A stretch of 44,545 nt of DNA from Erysipelothrix aquatica (GTDB taxonomy: Bacteria; Bacillota_I; Bacilli_A; Erysipelotrichales; Erysipelotrichaceae): assembly GCF_009828775.2 (NCBI RefSeq), contig NZ_WTSY02000018.1, positions 1-44,545 of the forward strand, written 5' to 3'. The position numbers were made by a program, and so were the translations under genes. Positions 11,198 through 25,425 of this stretch are shown here, one piece after another; position 1 is the stretch's first letter; every line of letters starts with the position of its first letter. The notes beneath the pieces are model-generated. The model was not told the DNA's origin. It saw only the letters and a list, made by a program, of their open reading frames with translations, and made no database searches.

Positions 11198-11203
11198 AGT
11201 GAA

Positions 11204-11460
11204 AAGCGATGAAAAGGAAAGTAACTTCATGAAAGTTCTTACAGAGAATCTACGTATGGTGAGAGTAGACGAACGGAAACGAAGCGAAAATGGCCTTGGA
11301 GCAATGATGCTGAAACACGAAAAGTGGTTTAGGCACATCGGGAGTGCCCGTTAAAGCGCTAGAGAATGATAGTTCTTGAAGAGGTTTATGATCGTGAGAC
11401 ATAAACGAATTAAGGTGGTAACATGAGCAGCGCTCATCCTTAGGGATGGGCGCTTTTTAT
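11204..11460 (+). promoter_or_regulatory. T-box riboswitch, probably sensing tRNA-Met
   Basis: The leader holds the usual T-box landmarks. An AGAGA element (11252-11257) is followed by a stem with a GTATGGTGAGA loop. The T-box AAGGTGGTAACATG is at 11412-11425. The antiterminator forms from AAGG with CCTT and ATGAG with CTCAT, leaving the bulge TGGTAAC. The competing terminator is AGCGCTCATCC with GGATGGGCGCT (11429-11452), then five T residues. The bulge UGGU would pair with ACCA, so the cognate tRNA has discriminator A, as tRNA-Met does. Possible AUG specifiers stand at 11290-11292 and 11304-11306; I could not fold stem I well enough to choose. Uncharged tRNA would turn on the M20 amidohydrolase and metNIQ. 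Confidence 0.85.
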
Positions 11461-11488: not shown

Positions 11489-12676
11489 ATGACACACAAA
11501 ATTGATGAATATGTAAACCAACAACACGAAATATACAAAAAAATTGCCTTGGATATTCATGCGAAACCAGAAGTAAGTAATTACGAGTTCTTTGCGAGTG
11601 AGACCCTCGCAAACCAACTTAAAGCAGAAGGTTTTGATGTTAAGGTCGATGTTGCAGGACACCGTACAGGTTTTGATGCACGATATGTTTCAAAGAAACA
11701 AGGACCTGTAATTGCATTTCTAGCTGAGTACGATGCGCTTGTCGGAATCGGGCATGCATGTGGGCACAACCTCTTTGGTGCAACCTCATCCTTAGCGGGT
11801 GCTGCTTTAAAACAAATTGTTGATGAAGTCGGCGGTGAAATTCGAATCTATGGAACACCGGGAGAAGAAGGTGGCGAGAATGGATCTGCAAAAGGAAGCT
11901 TTGTTCGTGAAGGGTTCTTCGAAGATGTAGACGCTGCATTATGTGTCCATCCAGGTCACTTGCATGGAGGAACGACATCAGGACTTGCAAATGATCCAGT
12001 CGATGTTGAATTCTTCGGACGAGCAAGTCATGCGTCTGGTAATCCCCAACATGGAATAAACGCTCTGGACGCAGTCATTCAAGTGTTCAACAGTGTTAAC
12101 GCATTACGTGAACACTTAACTGATGATGTTCGAATTCATGGAATTGTAACGCATGGTGGTGATGCACCAAATGTAGTACCTGAATATGCATCAGCGCGCT
12201 TCTACCTACGTGCCAAAAGCCGTACAACCCTTAATGATGTTTACCAAAAATTTGAGAACATTATAAAAGGTGCAGCACTAGCTACTGGATGTACACATAA
12301 ATTTGGACTCTTCCAAAACAGTGTTGATAATATCATCCTTACCCCGTCCTTCGATGCAATTTATGAAGCAAAACTTGCAACGTACGGTGAAGTATTCACA
12401 CCACGCAAAGTCACTGGAGGGCAAGGATCCTCAGACGTAGGAAATGTGAGTCAGGTTGTTCCAACGATTCAACCCTATATTAATATCAACAATACACCAA
12501 TGGCTGGACACAGTGTTGAATTTAGAGAAGCATCGAAGAGTGAGCTTGGACTCGATTCAATTGCTCTAGGTGCAAAAGTTCTTGCCCATACAGCATTGGA
12601 ATTACTGACAAATCCTGAATTACTAGAAGCAATTAAAAAAGAACATCGAGAAAATGTGGTATTGCAAGGAGAATAA
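11489..12676 (+). CDS. M20-family amidohydrolase (AbgB/aminoacylase-like)
   Basis: This is a 395-residue zinc-dependent amidohydrolase or peptidase of the M20D type, which includes aminoacylases, aminobenzoyl-glutamate hydrolases and N-acyl amino acid deacylases. Metal-site motifs are present: GHACGHN near residue 89, GTPGEEGGENGS near 126 with the catalytic and metal glutamates, CVHPGH near 152, and a late GHS. The dimerisation domain starts near residue 170 (VEFFGRASHASGNPQ). It is the first gene after the T-box and is followed after 2 nt by metN, so it probably releases methionine from an N-blocked or dipeptide form imported from outside. That substrate is inferred from context only. The ribosome site is AGGGAGAAAG. 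Confidence 0.88.
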   Translation: MTHKIDEYVNQQHEIYKKIALDIHAKPEVSNYEFFASETLANQLKAEGFDVKVDVAGHRTGFDARYVSKKQGPVIAFLAEYDALVGIGHACGHNLFGATSSLAGAALKQIVDEVGGEIRIYGTPGEEGGENGSAKGSFVREGFFEDVDAALCVHPGHLHGGTTSGLANDPVDVEFFGRASHASGNPQHGINALDAVIQVFNSVNALREHLTDDVRIHGIVTHGGDAPNVVPEYASARFYLRAKSRTTLNDVYQKFENIIKGAALATGCTHKFGLFQNSVDNIILTPSFDAIYEAKLATYGEVFTPRKVTGGQGSSDVGNVSQVVPTIQPYININNTPMAGHSVEFREASKSELGLDSIALGAKVLAHTALELLTNPELLEAIKKEHRENVVLQGE

Positions 12677-12678
12677 GA

Positions 12679-13716
12679 ATGATTGAATTTCAAAATGTAT
12701 CCAAAACATTTCAAACAAAGCAACTGAATGTCCATGCACTTCAAGACGTTAGTTTTAAGGTTACACCGGGAGAAATATTCGGCGTTATCGGATTTAGCGG
12801 TGCAGGAAAGAGCACGCTTGTTCGCTGCATTAATTTACTAGAGCGCCCAGAATCGGGAAAAATTATCGTGAATGGCGTTGATGTGAAGTCGTTAAATCCA
12901 CGCGAACTTCGCAATGAGCGTCGTAAAATTGGAATGATATTTCAAGGCTTTAACTTACTAAATTCCCGAACTGTTTATGAAAATATTGCATTTCCGTTAC
13001 GCTATAAAGGGAAGACTAAACATGAAATCAAAGATAAAGTTGAGTCCCTTCTCGAACTGGTGGGAATTGCAGACAAACGCGATGTTTTTCCATCACAATT
13101 GTCAGGTGGCCAAAAACAACGTGTTGCGATTGCACGTGCTTTAGCGAACGATCCAGACATTCTGTTATGTGACGAGGCCACGAGTGCTCTTGATCCGCAA
13201 ACCACCCAGACAATATTGAAATTATTGAAGGAAGTTAATGAACGTTTGGGAATCACAATTGTAATTATTACGCATGAAATGGCTGTTGTAAAAACAGTTT
13301 GCGATCGTGTGGCTGTGATGGAAAATGGCCATATTAAAGAGTTGGATGCAGTGACCGAAATATTTGCAAACCCACAAGCATCCATTACCAAAGATTTTGT
13401 AGACACGACTACCAATCTTACGTCACTGCAAGCATTAATCAACGAGAAACCTGAAGTCTTAGCACTCGATGAAGCTCAGCAATTAGTAAGACTTGATTTC
13501 CGGGGGAATATTACCCAAGAGGCAATCATTTCAGAAGTAAGTTTACGTTTCAATGTTAAAGCAAGTATTGTCTTTGCGAATGTCGAAATTGTTCATGACG
13601 AAGTGTTAGGGATTCTCGTGGTCATCTTGACTGGTGAACGTCAAATTGAAGCGCTTGAATTTTTACAGGCGACCGGGGTGAAAGTAGAGGTATTTGAAAA
13701 TGACAAGCGTGCTTGA
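12679..13716 (+). CDS. metN: Methionine ABC transporter ATP-binding protein
   Basis: This is a 345-residue ATPase of the MetNIQ importer. Walker A is GFSGAGKS near residue 38, with a phenylalanine in place of the more common H or Q. The Q-loop lies in IGMIFQGFNLL, the signature is LSGGQKQR, Walker B is ILLCDEATSALD, and the switch histidine is in ITHEM. The C-terminal about 80 residues (from about 265) form the NIL domain typical of MetN, which binds methionine and shuts the transporter when the cell is full. It starts 2 nt after the amidohydrolase stop and overlaps metI by 17 nt. Confidence 0.95.
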   Translation: MIEFQNVSKTFQTKQLNVHALQDVSFKVTPGEIFGVIGFSGAGKSTLVRCINLLERPESGKIIVNGVDVKSLNPRELRNERRKIGMIFQGFNLLNSRTVYENIAFPLRYKGKTKHEIKDKVESLLELVGIADKRDVFPSQLSGGQKQRVAIARALANDPDILLCDEATSALDPQTTQTILKLLKEVNERLGITIVIITHEMAVVKTVCDRVAVMENGHIKELDAVTEIFANPQASITKDFVDTTTNLTSLQALINEKPEVLALDEAQQLVRLDFRGNITQEAIISEVSLRFNVKASIVFANVEIVHDEVLGILVVILTGERQIEALEFLQATGVKVEVFENDKRA

Positions 13717-19635: not shown

Positions 19636-19664
19636 TTGACATCTTAGAAAAAATTACGTAAGAT
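19636..19664 (+). promoter_or_regulatory. Promoter of the ABC-F gene
   Basis: TTGACA (19636-19641) and TAAGAT (19659-19664) are exactly 17 nt apart. Transcription should start near 19671, giving a leader of 75 nt. Confidence 0.75.
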
Positions 19665-19670
19665 AGCAAT

Positions 19671-19745
19671 AACGAACGAAAGGCGGTGTGGCAATGTACA
19701 ACTCATCCTATACAGCATAAATAATCAAAATAGGAGGAGTTTGCC
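19671..19745 (+). promoter_or_regulatory. Translational attenuator of the ABC-F gene
   Basis: The 75-nt leader encodes a short peptide and can fold so that the ABC-F ribosome site is hidden. ACTCATCCTA (19701-19710, inside the leader ORF) pairs with TAGGAGGAGT (19731-19740, the Shine-Dalgarno) with one mismatch. Further pairing adds AA/TT on the outside, and GGCA (19690-19693) can reach TGCC (19742-19745) across a 6-nt bulge. A ribosome stalled on the leader peptide would cover the left arm and free the ribosome site. This is the logic of erm and cat translational attenuation, and drug-stalled leaders are known before several ABC-F resistance genes. Confidence 0.65.
19694..19720 (+). CDS. Eight-residue leader peptide MYNSSYTA
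   Basis: The ATG follows AAGGCGG by 7 nt and is read MYNSSYTA to TAA at 19718-19720. Its codons overlap the arm that pairs with the ABC-F Shine-Dalgarno, so its translation state would set expression of the next gene. It is within the predicted transcript, 24 nt after the start site. Confidence 0.6.
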   Translation: MYNSSYTA

Positions 19746-21230
19746 ATGCTAAATTTTAATATTGGTGTGAAGTCACCACAAGGGCGCCAACTAGTAGCGC
19801 CTTTTTCTATGTCCGTTCATGAGAACGAAAAAATTGCAATTATCGGAGAAGAAGGAAATGGGAAAAGTTTATTTCTAAAAGCCCTACTGAATCATCCGTC
19901 TTTAGATACTTTGGAAGTAACTCGAAGTGTATCATCGAAAGTTCTTTTCGGTTATGTATCCCAAGATATTGCAACCGAGGATCTTCTACGCTCAAGTAGA
20001 GACTACATCATTGAAGATCAATGGGAGCGTTATGAATCCTTTGGCTCGGTACATCAGGATTTATTACCGCATTTTTCGGAAGATGATTTTGATAGACCGT
20101 TACAAAGCCTTAGTGGTGGAGAACGTGTTCGGATTCAACTTATGAAAATTCTTGTGCAGGATGTTGATGTCTTTTTACTTGATGAGCCAACCAACGATTT
20201 GGATATTGAGACACTGATGTGGCTCGAATCATGGATTTTAAGTCAAAGTAAGCCGATTCTGTATATTTCTCATGATGTAAAACTACTAAAAAACACAGCA
20301 AATCGAGTCGTTCATTTTGAACAGACGCACCGAAAAACGCGATCACATATCACAGTCTTTGAGGGTACTTACGATGACTATGTGGAAACACGCAATCTGG
20401 AAATCGCAACGCACAACCATCAAGTTGAACGGGACCAAGCAGCACGTGCCAAACGATACGACCGTTGGTTACAATTATATCAAACAGTAGAACATCGCCA
20501 GCGGACACAAACCCGTCAAGATCCTGCAAAAGGGCGCTTGCTCAAGAAGAAAATGAAGACAATTAAATCTATGGAGCGTCGTTTTGACCGCGAAACACAC
20601 GAAACGAAAATCGATACCGAATCTGCAATTTCCATACGTTTTGACAATCAAGAAAAAGTGCATCGTAAGAAAATTGCTGAAATTGACGTCGACGCACTTG
20701 AAGTTGCCGGCAAGACACTTGGTTATAATTTCTATCTGGATATTTATACACCAGATAAAATCGCGATTATTGGTCGAAATGGAATCGGAAAATCGAGTTT
20801 GTTGAAGCAGGTTTTCGAAAATCACGATGCAATGATGCACCAGGATTATCGTCTGAATCTAGACTTTGAAAAGTCGCCGATTGATAATTGTGTACGAGAA
20901 GGGTCGCGTGAGGAACGAGGTCTCATCACCAATCGCTTGGGAAGTTTAAAGTTCACCGAAACGGAAATGAATACGCCGATGCGCCTCCTTTCTGGAGGAC
21001 AGAAAGCCAAAGTGTCATTGCTTAAGCTCGTGCTTCAAAAACCACAATTTATTATACTGGATGAACCAACACGAAACTTAAGTCCCCTTTCAGTTCATGA
21101 AATTTATAGTATGCTTCAAGGATTTCAAGGGGCTATACTTTGTGTAACCCATGACCGTTCCTTGATTGAGAACGTATTTGATACGGTCATTGTCATGACT
21201 GAAGATGGCTTTGAACCGGTGAGTGAGTAA
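19746..21230 (+). CDS. ABC-F ATPase, probable ribosome-protection (antibiotic resistance) type
   Basis: This is a 494-residue protein with two ABC ATPase domains and no membrane segment, the ABC-F design. Domain 1 has Walker A GEEGNGKS (34-41), signature LSGGE, and Walker B LLDEPTNDLD. A charged linker (about 210-290, with RAKRYDRWLQLYQTVEHRQR and LLKKKMK) would reach the ribosomal exit site. Domain 2 has GRNGIGKS, LSGGQ and ILDEPTRNLS. ABC-F resistance factors bind the E site and dislodge drugs of the macrolide, lincosamide, streptogramin or pleuromutilin classes. Which drug, if any, cannot be read here. The leader-peptide attenuator upstream supports a drug-induced role. ATG 19746 lies 8 nt after AGGAGG. 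Housekeeping ABC-F paralogs are the alternative. Confidence 0.85.
   Translation: MLNFNIGVKSPQGRQLVAPFSMSVHENEKIAIIGEEGNGKSLFLKALLNHPSLDTLEVTRSVSSKVLFGYVSQDIATEDLLRSSRDYIIEDQWERYESFGSVHQDLLPHFSEDDFDRPLQSLSGGERVRIQLMKILVQDVDVFLLDEPTNDLDIETLMWLESWILSQSKPILYISHDVKLLKNTANRVVHFEQTHRKTRSHITVFEGTYDDYVETRNLEIATHNHQVERDQAARAKRYDRWLQLYQTVEHRQRTQTRQDPAKGRLLKKKMKTIKSMERRFDRETHETKIDTESAISIRFDNQEKVHRKKIAEIDVDALEVAGKTLGYNFYLDIYTPDKIAIIGRNGIGKSSLLKQVFENHDAMMHQDYRLNLDFEKSPIDNCVREGSREERGLITNRLGSLKFTETEMNTPMRLLSGGQKAKVSLLKLVLQKPQFIILDEPTRNLSPLSVHEIYSMLQGFQGAILCVTHDRSLIENVFDTVIVMTEDGFEPVSE
19781..19806 (+). terminator. Intrinsic terminator-like hairpin inside the ABC-F start region
   Basis: AGGGCGC (19781-19787) pairs with GCGCCTT (19797-19803), one G-U included, around a 9-nt loop and runs into five T residues. 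It lies about 12-20 codons into the gene. Ribosomes entering the gene would melt it. When the ribosome site is hidden, it could end transcription early, adding a second layer to the attenuator. Confidence 0.4.
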
Positions 21231-21265: not shown

Positions 21266-21547
21266 ATGAAAAAGAAACTTAGTGTATACGGATGTTACTT
21301 AATATTTGTTGGAGGACTCTATGGCATCGAACATGGTTTAGGATGGTTTGCGTTTAGTCACTATGCTGGAATAGCGATTAGTCTGGCACTTCTTATAACC
21401 CTGTTTACATCAGTGCCTTTATTCCATAACGATTTTGAAACTGTTGGAAGCATTGCTGATCGAGCAAAAGAAAGCGCACCAATTATGTCAATTGGTCTGG
21501 CCTTTGCATTGATCTTGCCGCTTATAATCTACCTATATTTCTCGTAA
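21266..21547 (+). CDS. Small membrane protein of unknown function
   Basis: This is a 93-residue protein with three hydrophobic segments (about 9-25, 33-50 and 74-92). I do not recognise a family. It starts 35 nt after the ABC-F stop with AAGGAGA as ribosome site and no terminator between, so it is probably transcribed together with the ABC-F gene. A terminator follows its stop codon. Confidence 0.7.
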   Translation: MKKKLSVYGCYLIFVGGLYGIEHGLGWFAFSHYAGIAISLALLITLFTSVPLFHNDFETVGSIADRAKESAPIMSIGLAFALILPLIIYLYFS

Positions 21548-23389: not shown

Positions 23390-23410
23390 ATGAAAGATGG
23401 AGGATTTGCA

Positions 23411-23707
23411 ATGAATGCAAGTATCGCAATACAAGTATTACCCCACGTAGATGGGAACCAAGAAGTAGTTCGAATCGTTGATGAAGTTATCGATTACATT
23501 AAAGGAACCGGTCTTCATTACACCGTTGGAGCATTTGAAACAGCGGTTGAAGGCGATTATGATACGTTAATGGAAATCGTAAAACAATCACAGATTATTG
23601 CACATCGTGCCGGGGCTGATAAAGTTTCAGCATACGTAAAAATCGTGTACGCACCTCAAGGTGAGATGCTCACAATTGATGAAAAAATTACGAAACACCA
23701 ACAATAA
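23411..23707 (+). CDS. Thiamine-binding protein, YkoF/MTH1187 family
   Basis: This is a 98-residue ferredoxin-like fold protein of the thiamine-binding DUF77 family (MTH1187/YkoF type). It probably binds thiamine or its pyrimidine part in the cytoplasm or at the transporter. ATG 23411 has GGAGG 8 nt before it; ATG 23390 directly abuts the terminator T run and is less likely. Family features are IAIQVLPH at the start, LHYTVGAFETAVEGD in the centre, and VKI near the end. It is the first gene after the TPP riboswitch and overlaps the permease gene. Confidence 0.88.
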   Translation: MNASIAIQVLPHVDGNQEVVRIVDEVIDYIKGTGLHYTVGAFETAVEGDYDTLMEIVKQSQIIAHRAGADKVSAYVKIVYAPQGEMLTIDEKITKHQQ

Positions 23708-24440
23708 GCGTTATGCGTTTATGTCGGTTGGTCTTGTCATAGTACTGTGGCAACTCATAGTATGGAGTGGTATTGTGCCCCAGTTCATGCTTCCAGGTCC
23801 CGCTTCGGTTATTATGGCATTGTATGAAGACCGTGCATTGTTATGGATGCATGCTCAAACAACCCTGCTAGAAGCCTTTCTGGGGCTTTTAGGGGGTGTT
23901 GGGTTGGGTGTCACATTAGCGTTACTGATGGATCGTTACGATCGCGTTTATCGTATGGTTTATCCGTTGATGATTCTCACGCAGACAGTCCCAACTGTCG
24001 CCGTTGCACCACTGCTTGTCTTATGGTTAGGTTATGGAATCTTACCGAAAATTGTACTCATCGTTTTAACATCATTTTTTCCAATGGCTATCGGTTGTTT
24101 CCAAGGCTTACAGGCTGTCGATCGAGACAGCATTCAACTCTTACGAAGTATGGGGGCGAATACAGTACAACAGTACCAGCACGTTCGGATTCCGGAAAGT
24201 ATATCACCATTTTTTGCTAGTCTAAAAATTGCGGTTTCGTATGCAGTTGTTGGGGCTGTTATTGCGGAATGGCTCGGTGGAACCAGCGGACTGGGAGTCT
24301 ATATGACACGTGTTCGAAAAGCCTATGCATTTGACAAAATGTTTGCAGTAATTGTGCTCATTTCACTATTAAGCCTACTCTTAATGGGGTTGGTCAATGT
24401 TTTGGAACGGAAAGCGATGCCGTGGAAAGATGTGGAATAA
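23679..24440 (+). CDS. thiX: Thiamine-precursor ABC transporter permease
   Basis: This is a permease of the SsuC/TauC/ThiX type with about six membrane spans and the coupling loop LQAVDRDSIQLLRSMGANTVQQYQHVRIPES (about residues 140-170). ATG 23679 (protein MKKLRNTNNKRY) is preferred; a GTG at 23661 is in frame but has no ribosome site. The start overlaps the end of the thiamine-binding gene by about 29 nt. With thiY and thiZ it makes an importer for the pyrimidine part of thiamine, as the TPP switch implies. Confidence 0.88.
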   Translation: MKKLRNTNNKRYAFMSVGLVIVLWQLIVWSGIVPQFMLPGPASVIMALYEDRALLWMHAQTTLLEAFLGLLGGVGLGVTLALLMDRYDRVYRMVYPLMILTQTVPTVAVAPLLVLWLGYGILPKIVLIVLTSFFPMAIGCFQGLQAVDRDSIQLLRSMGANTVQQYQHVRIPESISPFFASLKIAVSYAVVGAVIAEWLGGTSGLGVYMTRVRKAYAFDKMFAVIVLISLLSLLLMGLVNVLERKAMPWKDVE

Positions 24441-24450
24441 AGGAGATATT

Positions 24451-25425
24451 ATGAAACGAATTGTAGTGAGTTTATTAGCGTTGCTAGTCTTAGCAGGATG
24501 TAGTACTTCCAAAGATACTCAGAAAGTGCGCTTTGTACTGGATTGGACACCCAATACTAACCACACAGGCCTATACGTAGCGCTTGAAAAAGGATACTTT
24601 GAAGAAGCAGGGATTGCGTTGGAAATAGTTCAACCGCCTGAGGATGGTGCTGTTGGTTTGGTTGCAGCTAAGGGCGCAGAATTCGGTGTCGGGTTCCAAG
24701 ATACCTTGGCGCCAGTCTGGGCACGCCCAGAACCTTTACCAGTAACTGCAGTTGCAGCGATGATTCAGCATAACACATCTGGAATTGTCTCGTTGAAAGA
24801 CAAAGGTATTGACCAACCATCTAAAATGGCGAATCATTCCTATGCGACATGGGATATTCCCGTTGAACAAGCAATCTTAAAATATGTAATTGAACAAGAT
24901 GGCGGTTCATTTGACAGCGTCTCATTAATCCCAAATACCGTGACGGATGCTGTCAGTGCACTCCAAAGCAATGTCGATACAATTTGGATTTATCGCGGTT
25001 GGGATGGTATTGCTTTAGAAGTTGCGAACCAAGAGATAAACTACTTTGCATTCGCCGATTATGCGAAGGAATTGGATTTCTATAGCCCAGTAGTCATCGC
25101 AAATAACGATTATCTGAAAGATAATCCAGAGCAAGCGAAAGCATTTTTAGCAGCATTGGGTAAAGGATATCAGGACGCTGTTGCTAATCCTGAAGAAGCT
25201 GCACAAATTCTGATGAAACATGTCCCGGAATTAAAAAGCAATGAGGTGTTAATCATTGAAAGCCAAAAATATCTTGCGGGTGAGTATATGCGTGGCGAAG
25301 CGCAGTGGGGAAAATTTGATGCAAACCGTTGGAATGCTTTCTACAATTGGCTCGGTGAGAAGCAATTGATTGAGCAACCGATTCCTGCCGGATTTGGCTT
25401 TACGAATGATTTCCTTGCTTCATGA
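24451..25425 (+). CDS. thiY: Pyrimidine-precursor-binding lipoprotein
   Basis: This is a 324-residue substrate-binding lipoprotein of the NMT1/THI5-like fold. A lipobox at VLAGC (C17 or near) anchors it outside. The signature FVLDWTPNTNHTGLYVALEKGYF near residue 30 is typical of ThiY, which binds formylaminopyrimidine or HMP salvaged from degraded thiamine. ATG 24451 follows AAGGAG by 6 nt. The end overlaps thiZ by four bases (ATGA), so translation is coupled. Confidence 0.92.
   Translation: MKRIVVSLLALLVLAGCSTSKDTQKVRFVLDWTPNTNHTGLYVALEKGYFEEAGIALEIVQPPEDGAVGLVAAKGAEFGVGFQDTLAPVWARPEPLPVTAVAAMIQHNTSGIVSLKDKGIDQPSKMANHSYATWDIPVEQAILKYVIEQDGGSFDSVSLIPNTVTDAVSALQSNVDTIWIYRGWDGIALEVANQEINYFAFADYAKELDFYSPVVIANNDYLKDNPEQAKAFLAALGKGYQDAVANPEEAAQILMKHVPELKSNEVLIIESQKYLAGEYMRGEAQWGKFDANRWNAFYNWLGEKQLIEQPIPAGFGFTNDFLAS

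Follow-up and report, generated by a model that had tools for sequence, protein, structure and literature searches.

The ABC-F gene at positions 19746..21230 (+ strand) of the Erysipelothrix aquatica contig presumably is controlled by a two-step attenuator, in which a short leader ORF would govern the translation of the gene and this translation would in turn relieve an intrinsic terminator located inside the coding sequence. Pleuromutilins, lincosamides and streptogramin A (PLSA drugs) would be the likeliest inducers, and we assign this reading a probability of roughly 60%. Comparison of related sequences shows that the leader and its pairing with the gene start are conserved and that the intragenic hairpin is under selection at the RNA level, in a genus lacking rho. 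The stronger discovery and the best-evidenced of all parts is the hairpin inside the gene, which the original prediction had brought in as a side remark and thereby underrated. The window referred to below is the whole analysed stretch of 44,545 nucleotides.

The predicted gene product of 494 aa shows the two ABC domains, the linker and the lack of a membrane domain that define the ABC-F class: two matches to PF00005 were obtained, two Walker A motifs (GEEGNGKS and GRNGIGKS) and two signatures (LSGGE and LSGGQ) are present, no transmembrane domain was recognised and residues 12-481 align with solved ribosome-bound ABC-F proteins, e.g. 7p48. The nearest curated NCBIfam profiles, Vga (249.6 of 725), CplR (204.7 of 780) and Sal (202.9 of 725), all remained under their cut-offs, as did the general model for ribosomal protection (287.4 of 380), and none of the named resistance ABC-F families (Vga, Sal, CplR, Lsa, Msr, OptrA) was matched over its NCBIfam cut-off. 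The protein represents an uncharacterised ABC-F lineage, which judging from its sequence may have a role in antibiotic resistance. A search for the CplR family in the phylum returned no matches, its controls likewise returning none. The nearest named match is E. anatis (98% protein identity), and a paralog with 45% identity is encoded in the same genome. Based on searches in the genus, a comparison set of 16 Erysipelothrix genes was assembled that comprises two paralog groups (nine genes in group A, seven in group B), which together form one clade against the other members of the family in the protein tree (support 100/100).

A putative promoter of the sigma-70/A type (TTGACA-17-TAAGAT; 19636..19664, + strand) precedes the leader ORF, as had been predicted, and the transcript start predicted from it lies at about 19671, upstream of the leader. 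The promoter scan by itself performed at chance level (11 hits vs 11.6 expected). A similar promoter is found 106-128 nt 5' of the majority of the related genes in the set of 16, despite differing neighbour genes. According to the neighbourhood comparison VanY and a downstream gene of 93 aa adjoin the ABC-F gene only in L001 and L009. The latter gene (21266-21544, + strand, 3' of the ABC-F gene), which putatively encodes a membrane-like protein without Pfam or NCBIfam match, has this position only in the two nearest genomes.

Elsewhere in the window a T-box leader was detected at 11200-11444 (+ strand; Rfam RF00230, 117 bits), which is located 5' of genes (11489-13716) predicted to encode an amidohydrolase/M20-type peptidase as well as the ATPase of an amino-acid ABC transporter. 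The genes at 23390-25425 (+ strand) presumably encode a YkoF-like thiamine-binding protein, a permease and an NMT1/ThiY-like binding protein, as named from sequence reading. No TPP riboswitch reached the Rfam gathering score in the window.

The leader ORF of eight codons (19694..19720, + strand; ATG TAC AAC TCA TCC TAT ACA GCA TAA), encoding MYNSSYTA, was found together with its own ribosome site exactly as proposed. This site is the purine-rich, Shine-Dalgarno-like sequence AAGGCGGTG (19680..19688, + strand), for which a duplex energy of -11.3 kcal/mol with the 3' end of the 16S rRNA was computed. In all 16 genes of groups A and B a short leader ORF begins 51 to 56 nt upstream of the ABC-F gene, the gap between leader stop and ABC-F start amounting to 16-33 nt. 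The encoded peptides are MYNSSYTA, MRTTPTH, MNSSSIN, MDRNSF, MNRTSF, MDRISF, MDRKSF and MKIALS in group A, and MGNAPTLKHNN with variants, MGENSVDKK, LGKLPH and LGQFLII in group B. Since the peptides differ while the location of the leader is the same in every gene, it is the pairing and the position that are conserved and not the peptide. The leaders of group B have a weak Shine-Dalgarno sequence and in some cases TTG starts, which counts against the two-step attenuator. Group B (L002, L017-L022) furthermore carries an additional conserved element, AGAAAGGTAGCANNTYGCTA...GGTGA, about 60-90 nt 5' of the gene and just upstream of the leader, which frequently folds as a hairpin beside the leader Shine-Dalgarno sequence and is absent from group A.

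Short leaders with a good Shine-Dalgarno sequence were also detected in front of 78 of the 112 ABC-F genes of the Erysipelotrichaceae, compared to 20 expected from shuffled sequences. Many of these leaders consist of only three or four codons (MKN, MKK, MRN, MYR and MYRK; also MYKHK) and resemble the MIN, MRI and MKL/Q leaders of vmlR, cplR and vmlR2. Leaders of three to four codons with a strong Shine-Dalgarno sequence occur in L036, L038, L039, L042, L055-L057, L071, L077, L095, L098, L107, L123, L132 and others.

The region 19671-19815 is predicted to fold with -39.2 kcal/mol (z = -2.76; four of 200 shuffled sequences were equally stable), its minimum-energy fold containing a hairpin between the leader and the ABC-F Shine-Dalgarno sequence, a small one within codons 6-11 and a further one within codons 13-19. 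In the first of these (hairpin 1) the leader codons double as the 5' arm (19685..19711, + strand), whose anti-Shine-Dalgarno core ACTCATCCTA (19701-19710) pairs with the ABC-F Shine-Dalgarno sequence TAGGAGGAGT (19731-19740) in the 3' arm (19730..19750, + strand; start codon at 19746-19748). The pairing of leader codons that had been proposed to mask the ribosome site was thereby confirmed with one A.G mismatch and with a longer predicted stem than had been described, which extends upstream through the start region of the leader and downstream across the AUG of the ABC-F gene.

The geometry of hairpin 1 is conserved in the 16 genes, in which leader nucleotides from about +8 to +17 pair with the Shine-Dalgarno sequence; in most of them the stem is extended by pairing of the leader start region with the gene start region. 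Variants in the flanks of the Shine-Dalgarno sequence (GGAGGAAG, GGAGGCG, GAGGAG) are matched by altered leader codons. Among 12 representatives the native arms pair on average with -18.3 kcal/mol and the swapped arms with -14.5 kcal/mol, and none of 20,000 permutations was as good, a result which, due to the relatedness of the representatives, does not amount to a probability for independent samples. Thus, the leader and the compensating pairing that the original prediction had proposed to look for in related genomes are present in all 16 Erysipelothrix genes, and this conserved pairing supports a translational attenuator based on the leader ORF. Sequestration of the Shine-Dalgarno sequence by the uORF, as known from cplR and vmlR, is likewise found in 16 of 16 genes.

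Modelling of the accessibility gave a mean unpaired probability of the Shine-Dalgarno sequence of 0.16 in the free RNA, which rose to about 0.5 when a ribosome was placed on leader codons 1-4 and to 0.81 when it was placed on the last codon. The expected opening upon blocking of the leader was thus obtained for the last codon and only by about half for the first four, the latter counting against the two-step attenuator. A constitutive coupling ORF, the translation of which always opens the hairpin and senses no drug, would agree with the unconserved leader peptides and with a stop-to-start gap that would permit a transient opening. However, once a ribosome has completed the leader, nothing would keep the hairpin from closing, and the tiny ABC-F leaders found throughout the family match the drug-sensing uORFs of vmlR, cplR and lsaA (PMC9226507, PMC10201436). 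We therefore regard such a coupling ORF as highly unlikely.

The designation of the attenuator as Erm-like was not supported. When the arm containing the Shine-Dalgarno sequence was blocked, no alternative hairpin of the erm type was conserved in the folding of ten representatives, and the four-segment folding typical of Erm was not found. No Rfam covariance model matched in the leader region. As in erm and cat, stalling on the leader would free a sequestered Shine-Dalgarno sequence, and the single hairpin resembles cat; in contrast to these systems there are neither erm-type alternative hairpins nor a conserved arrest peptide, and the leader codons themselves form the anti-Shine-Dalgarno arm. 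One direct hairpin between leader and gene start, the lack of an alternative and the absence of the +x+ motif from 15 of the 16 leaders fit the cat, cplR or toiL types and drugs that stall ribosomes at initiation.

The macrolide motif +x+ occurs solely in the L022 leader, as RLK, and this rarity together with the unconserved leader peptide argues against macrolides as inducers. By analogy, PLSA drugs are the likeliest candidates: they were shown by toeprints to stall ribosomes at the start codons of ABC-F uORFs (PMC12421871), and this stalling depends little on the sequence context (PMC10201436). If a PLSA drug arrested a ribosome at the leader AUG, the ribosomal footprint would cover the anti-Shine-Dalgarno codons. 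Codons for Ser, Thr or Ala are present in the majority of the leaders, and chloramphenicol stalls ribosomes after residues of this type according to work cited in PMC12121999; phenicols or oxazolidinones acting at these codons might hence be considered as inducers in place of the PLSA drugs. This seems quite unlikely, since the Ser and Thr codons are dictated by the anti-Shine-Dalgarno sequence alone, the group B leader LGQFLII has neither Ser, Thr nor Ala and the protein scores closer to the Vga, Sal and CplR profiles than to OptrA.

The hairpin in codons 13-19 (19782..19806, + strand) consists of GGGCGCCAACTAGTAGCGCC followed by TTTTTC, with TTTTT at 19802-19806, and resembles an intrinsic terminator. 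It was missed by the consensus terminator scan due to its loop of 9 nt. In all 16 genes it occupies the same nucleotides of the coding sequence (+37..+57, followed by TTTTTC or, in L011, TTTTAC; full element +37..+61), L016 retaining a stable but bulged hairpin. At pair 39-55 nine of the genes have G-C and seven have A-U; at pair 42-52 nine have C-G, five have U-A and one has U-G. The 5' bases of the covarying pairs are synonymous third positions (Gly13, Arg14) and the 3' bases are first positions (Pro/Ser19, Ala/Thr18), amino acid changes thus being mirrored by silent changes across the loop. On the protein tree at least three independent double changes are required: in L013, which is nested among relatives with G-C, in group B without L017, and at pair 42-52 in group B.

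Sampling of synonymous codons showed that only 0-4% of the draws per gene reach the observed stability, L001 and L009, the type of this strain, being the weakest cases with p values of only 0.03-0.04. In a scan of the whole gene with windows of nine codons, codons 11-13 had the lowest mean z (-3.24), and the next distinct signal, in codons 2-5, reached about -1.3. The background rate was determined in another Erysipelothrix genome, of which a portion of about 0.8 Mb with 725 ORFs contained only eight terminator-like hairpins of -10 kcal/mol or below within the first 150 nt of ORFs, two of which belong to the ABC-F genes of groups A and B. Present in all genes, covarying and more stable than synonymous recoding explains, the terminator-like hairpin that had been suggested to add polarity is under selection at the RNA level as far as the comparison of coding sequences indicates, and it probably acts as a terminator. 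It counts against the two-step attenuator that part of the U-tract is provided by Phe-Ser codons for reasons of the protein and that the d-score, as approximated here, is -2.9 in this strain (the weakest together with the near-identical ortholog L009) vs 4 to 31 in all others.

Other ABC-F genes of the family more often carry terminator-like hairpins 5' of the start codon (e.g. L026, L032, L058, L065, L072, L113), and the internal placement in Erysipelothrix therefore seems to be a local change. L102, L112 and L029 have internal hairpins of their own, and possible intragenic terminator-like hairpins followed by T-runs were noticed in codons 14-21 of L102, codons 13-20 of L112 and codons 26-34 of L059, L061, L093, L097 and L104.

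The small hairpin 2 (GGTG...CACC, codons 6-11; 19763..19778, + strand) has the second-lowest synonymous z of the gene (about -1.3). It is conserved only in part as a helix of fixed position, as its register shifts between the subgroups. One may speculate, by analogy to vmlR (PMC9226507), that it is an RNA polymerase pause hairpin which buys time for the ribosome.

In the proposed two-step attenuator a ribosome would complete the leader in the absence of a drug, hairpin 1 would close and the ABC-F gene would not be translated; a ribosome held on the leader by a drug would cover the anti-Shine-Dalgarno codons, keep hairpin 1 open and free the ABC-F start. Without translation of the ABC-F gene the polymerase would stop at the internal terminator (nt 37-61) and release a transcript of about 135 nt, while a translating ribosome would disrupt the terminator hairpin and permit synthesis of the full mRNA. 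No conserved antiterminator pairing was found in the comparison of the 16 genes, so that translation of the ABC-F gene itself would be the simplest means of read-through. A pairing of the leader Shine-Dalgarno sequence with the 3' arm of the terminator (-8.6 to -17.7 kcal/mol in group A except L016) was rejected as antiterminator, its register being unconserved in group B and L016 and its logic being wrong, since occupancy of the leader would favour termination.

If the attenuator acted on translation only, the intragenic hairpin would be a throttle of fixed efficiency or an element of RNA stability or pausing that does not respond to translation. Besides the lack of an antiterminator, the classification of the Bacillota as having runaway transcription (PMC13323073) speaks for this, since the ribosome may arrive after the polymerase has passed the approximately 60 nt from the Shine-Dalgarno sequence to the terminator, which makes the rescue of an intrinsic terminator by a ribosome doubtful in this lineage. 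However, a terminator that cannot be relieved would merely lower the expression of an inducible gene, yet both paralog groups have retained this element through compensating changes; a purely translational control thus appears unlikely.

Due to the absence of rho, an untranslated ABC-F mRNA would escape Rho-dependent termination in Erysipelothrix, and the missing polarity would instead come from the intrinsic terminator within the gene. None of 13 Erysipelothrix genomes had a rho match over the cut-off, the controls E. coli and B. subtilis being matched, and the residual weak hits probably are ATP synthase subunits, judging by length and pairing. A strong rho match was obtained in only 16 of 96 genomes of the family. 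Taking into account that most of the family also lacks rho, its loss was rejected as the specific cause of the internal terminator and seems to be permissive and not explanatory.

Dual attenuation of transcription and translation is already known for the ABC-F genes vmlR and cplR, as is the uORF-controlled release of intragenic termination, with Rho, in toiL-topAI. In this E. coli system stalling on the uORF caused by an antibiotic opens the Shine-Dalgarno hairpin, and Rho-dependent intragenic termination is relieved by translation (eLife 2025, PMC12121999). The genes described here share with it a uORF, a hidden downstream ribosome site and a predicted translation-relieved stop signal inside the downstream coding sequence, namely a putative terminator under sequence selection. 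However, a toxin-antitoxin system is regulated there and an ABC-F gene here, and the role of Rho would be taken by an intrinsic hairpin with a U-tract inside the gene.

The C. difficile cplR gene is similarly a genome-encoded ABC-F gene with a very short uORF, a sequestered Shine-Dalgarno sequence and attenuation of both translation and transcription (PMC10201436). Its terminator, however, is the hairpin that hides the Shine-Dalgarno sequence; it extends as far as the start codon and is countered by an antiterminator (PMC10201436). In Erysipelothrix, by contrast, there are two separate hairpins, of which the clearly terminator-like one occupies nt 37-61 of the coding sequence, and an antiterminator was not found. 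In most of the 16 genes hairpin 1 is followed by U-runs (GGAGGAGTTTT, GGAGGCGTTTTT) and could, following the precedent of cplR (PMC10201436), represent a terminator hiding the Shine-Dalgarno sequence, with the internal hairpin as a backup terminator. We consider this improbable because the loop of hairpin 1 is long (about 18 nt here), the hairpin makes a weak terminator in its short-stem form, only three T follow it in the window and an anti-terminator partner is lacking. The terminator at or upstream of the start codon with its antiterminator, by which cplR and vmlR are characterised, was not recovered, the weak U-run after hairpin 1 leaving room for a part of it.

Returning to the two-step attenuator with its internal terminator, B. 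subtilis vmlR shares with it the uORF control of an ABC-F gene, attenuation at both levels, lincomycin-type inducers and a flexible uORF sequence, but its terminator lies in the 5' leader upstream of the Shine-Dalgarno hairpin and involves NusG pausing (PMC9226507), whereas the present one lies in the coding sequence. The streptococcal msrD is likewise an ABC-F gene under the control of a leader peptide (PMC10314930); in contrast, the arrest peptide MsrDL is specific for macrolides, and the terminator is located between leader and gene (PMC10314930).

In the open-access literature we found no description of an intrinsic terminator inside a coding sequence in this role. We tentatively propose, with slightly less than even confidence, that translation of the ABC-F gene itself is the antiterminator and that the embedded terminator, kept by compensatory codon changes, is a Rho-free polarity device which converts translational attenuation into transcriptional control. 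If true, this would show how bacteria without Rho tie the transcription of a costly resistance-type gene to its translation. The doubt concerning read-through in a lineage classed as having runaway transcription also gives the system its appeal as a test case. It would provide a natural setting in which to see whether ribosomes keep pace with the RNA polymerase early in genes of the Bacillota. Furthermore, the proposed mechanism predicts that Erysipelothrix has an intrinsic, inducible tolerance to drugs employed against it in farm animals.
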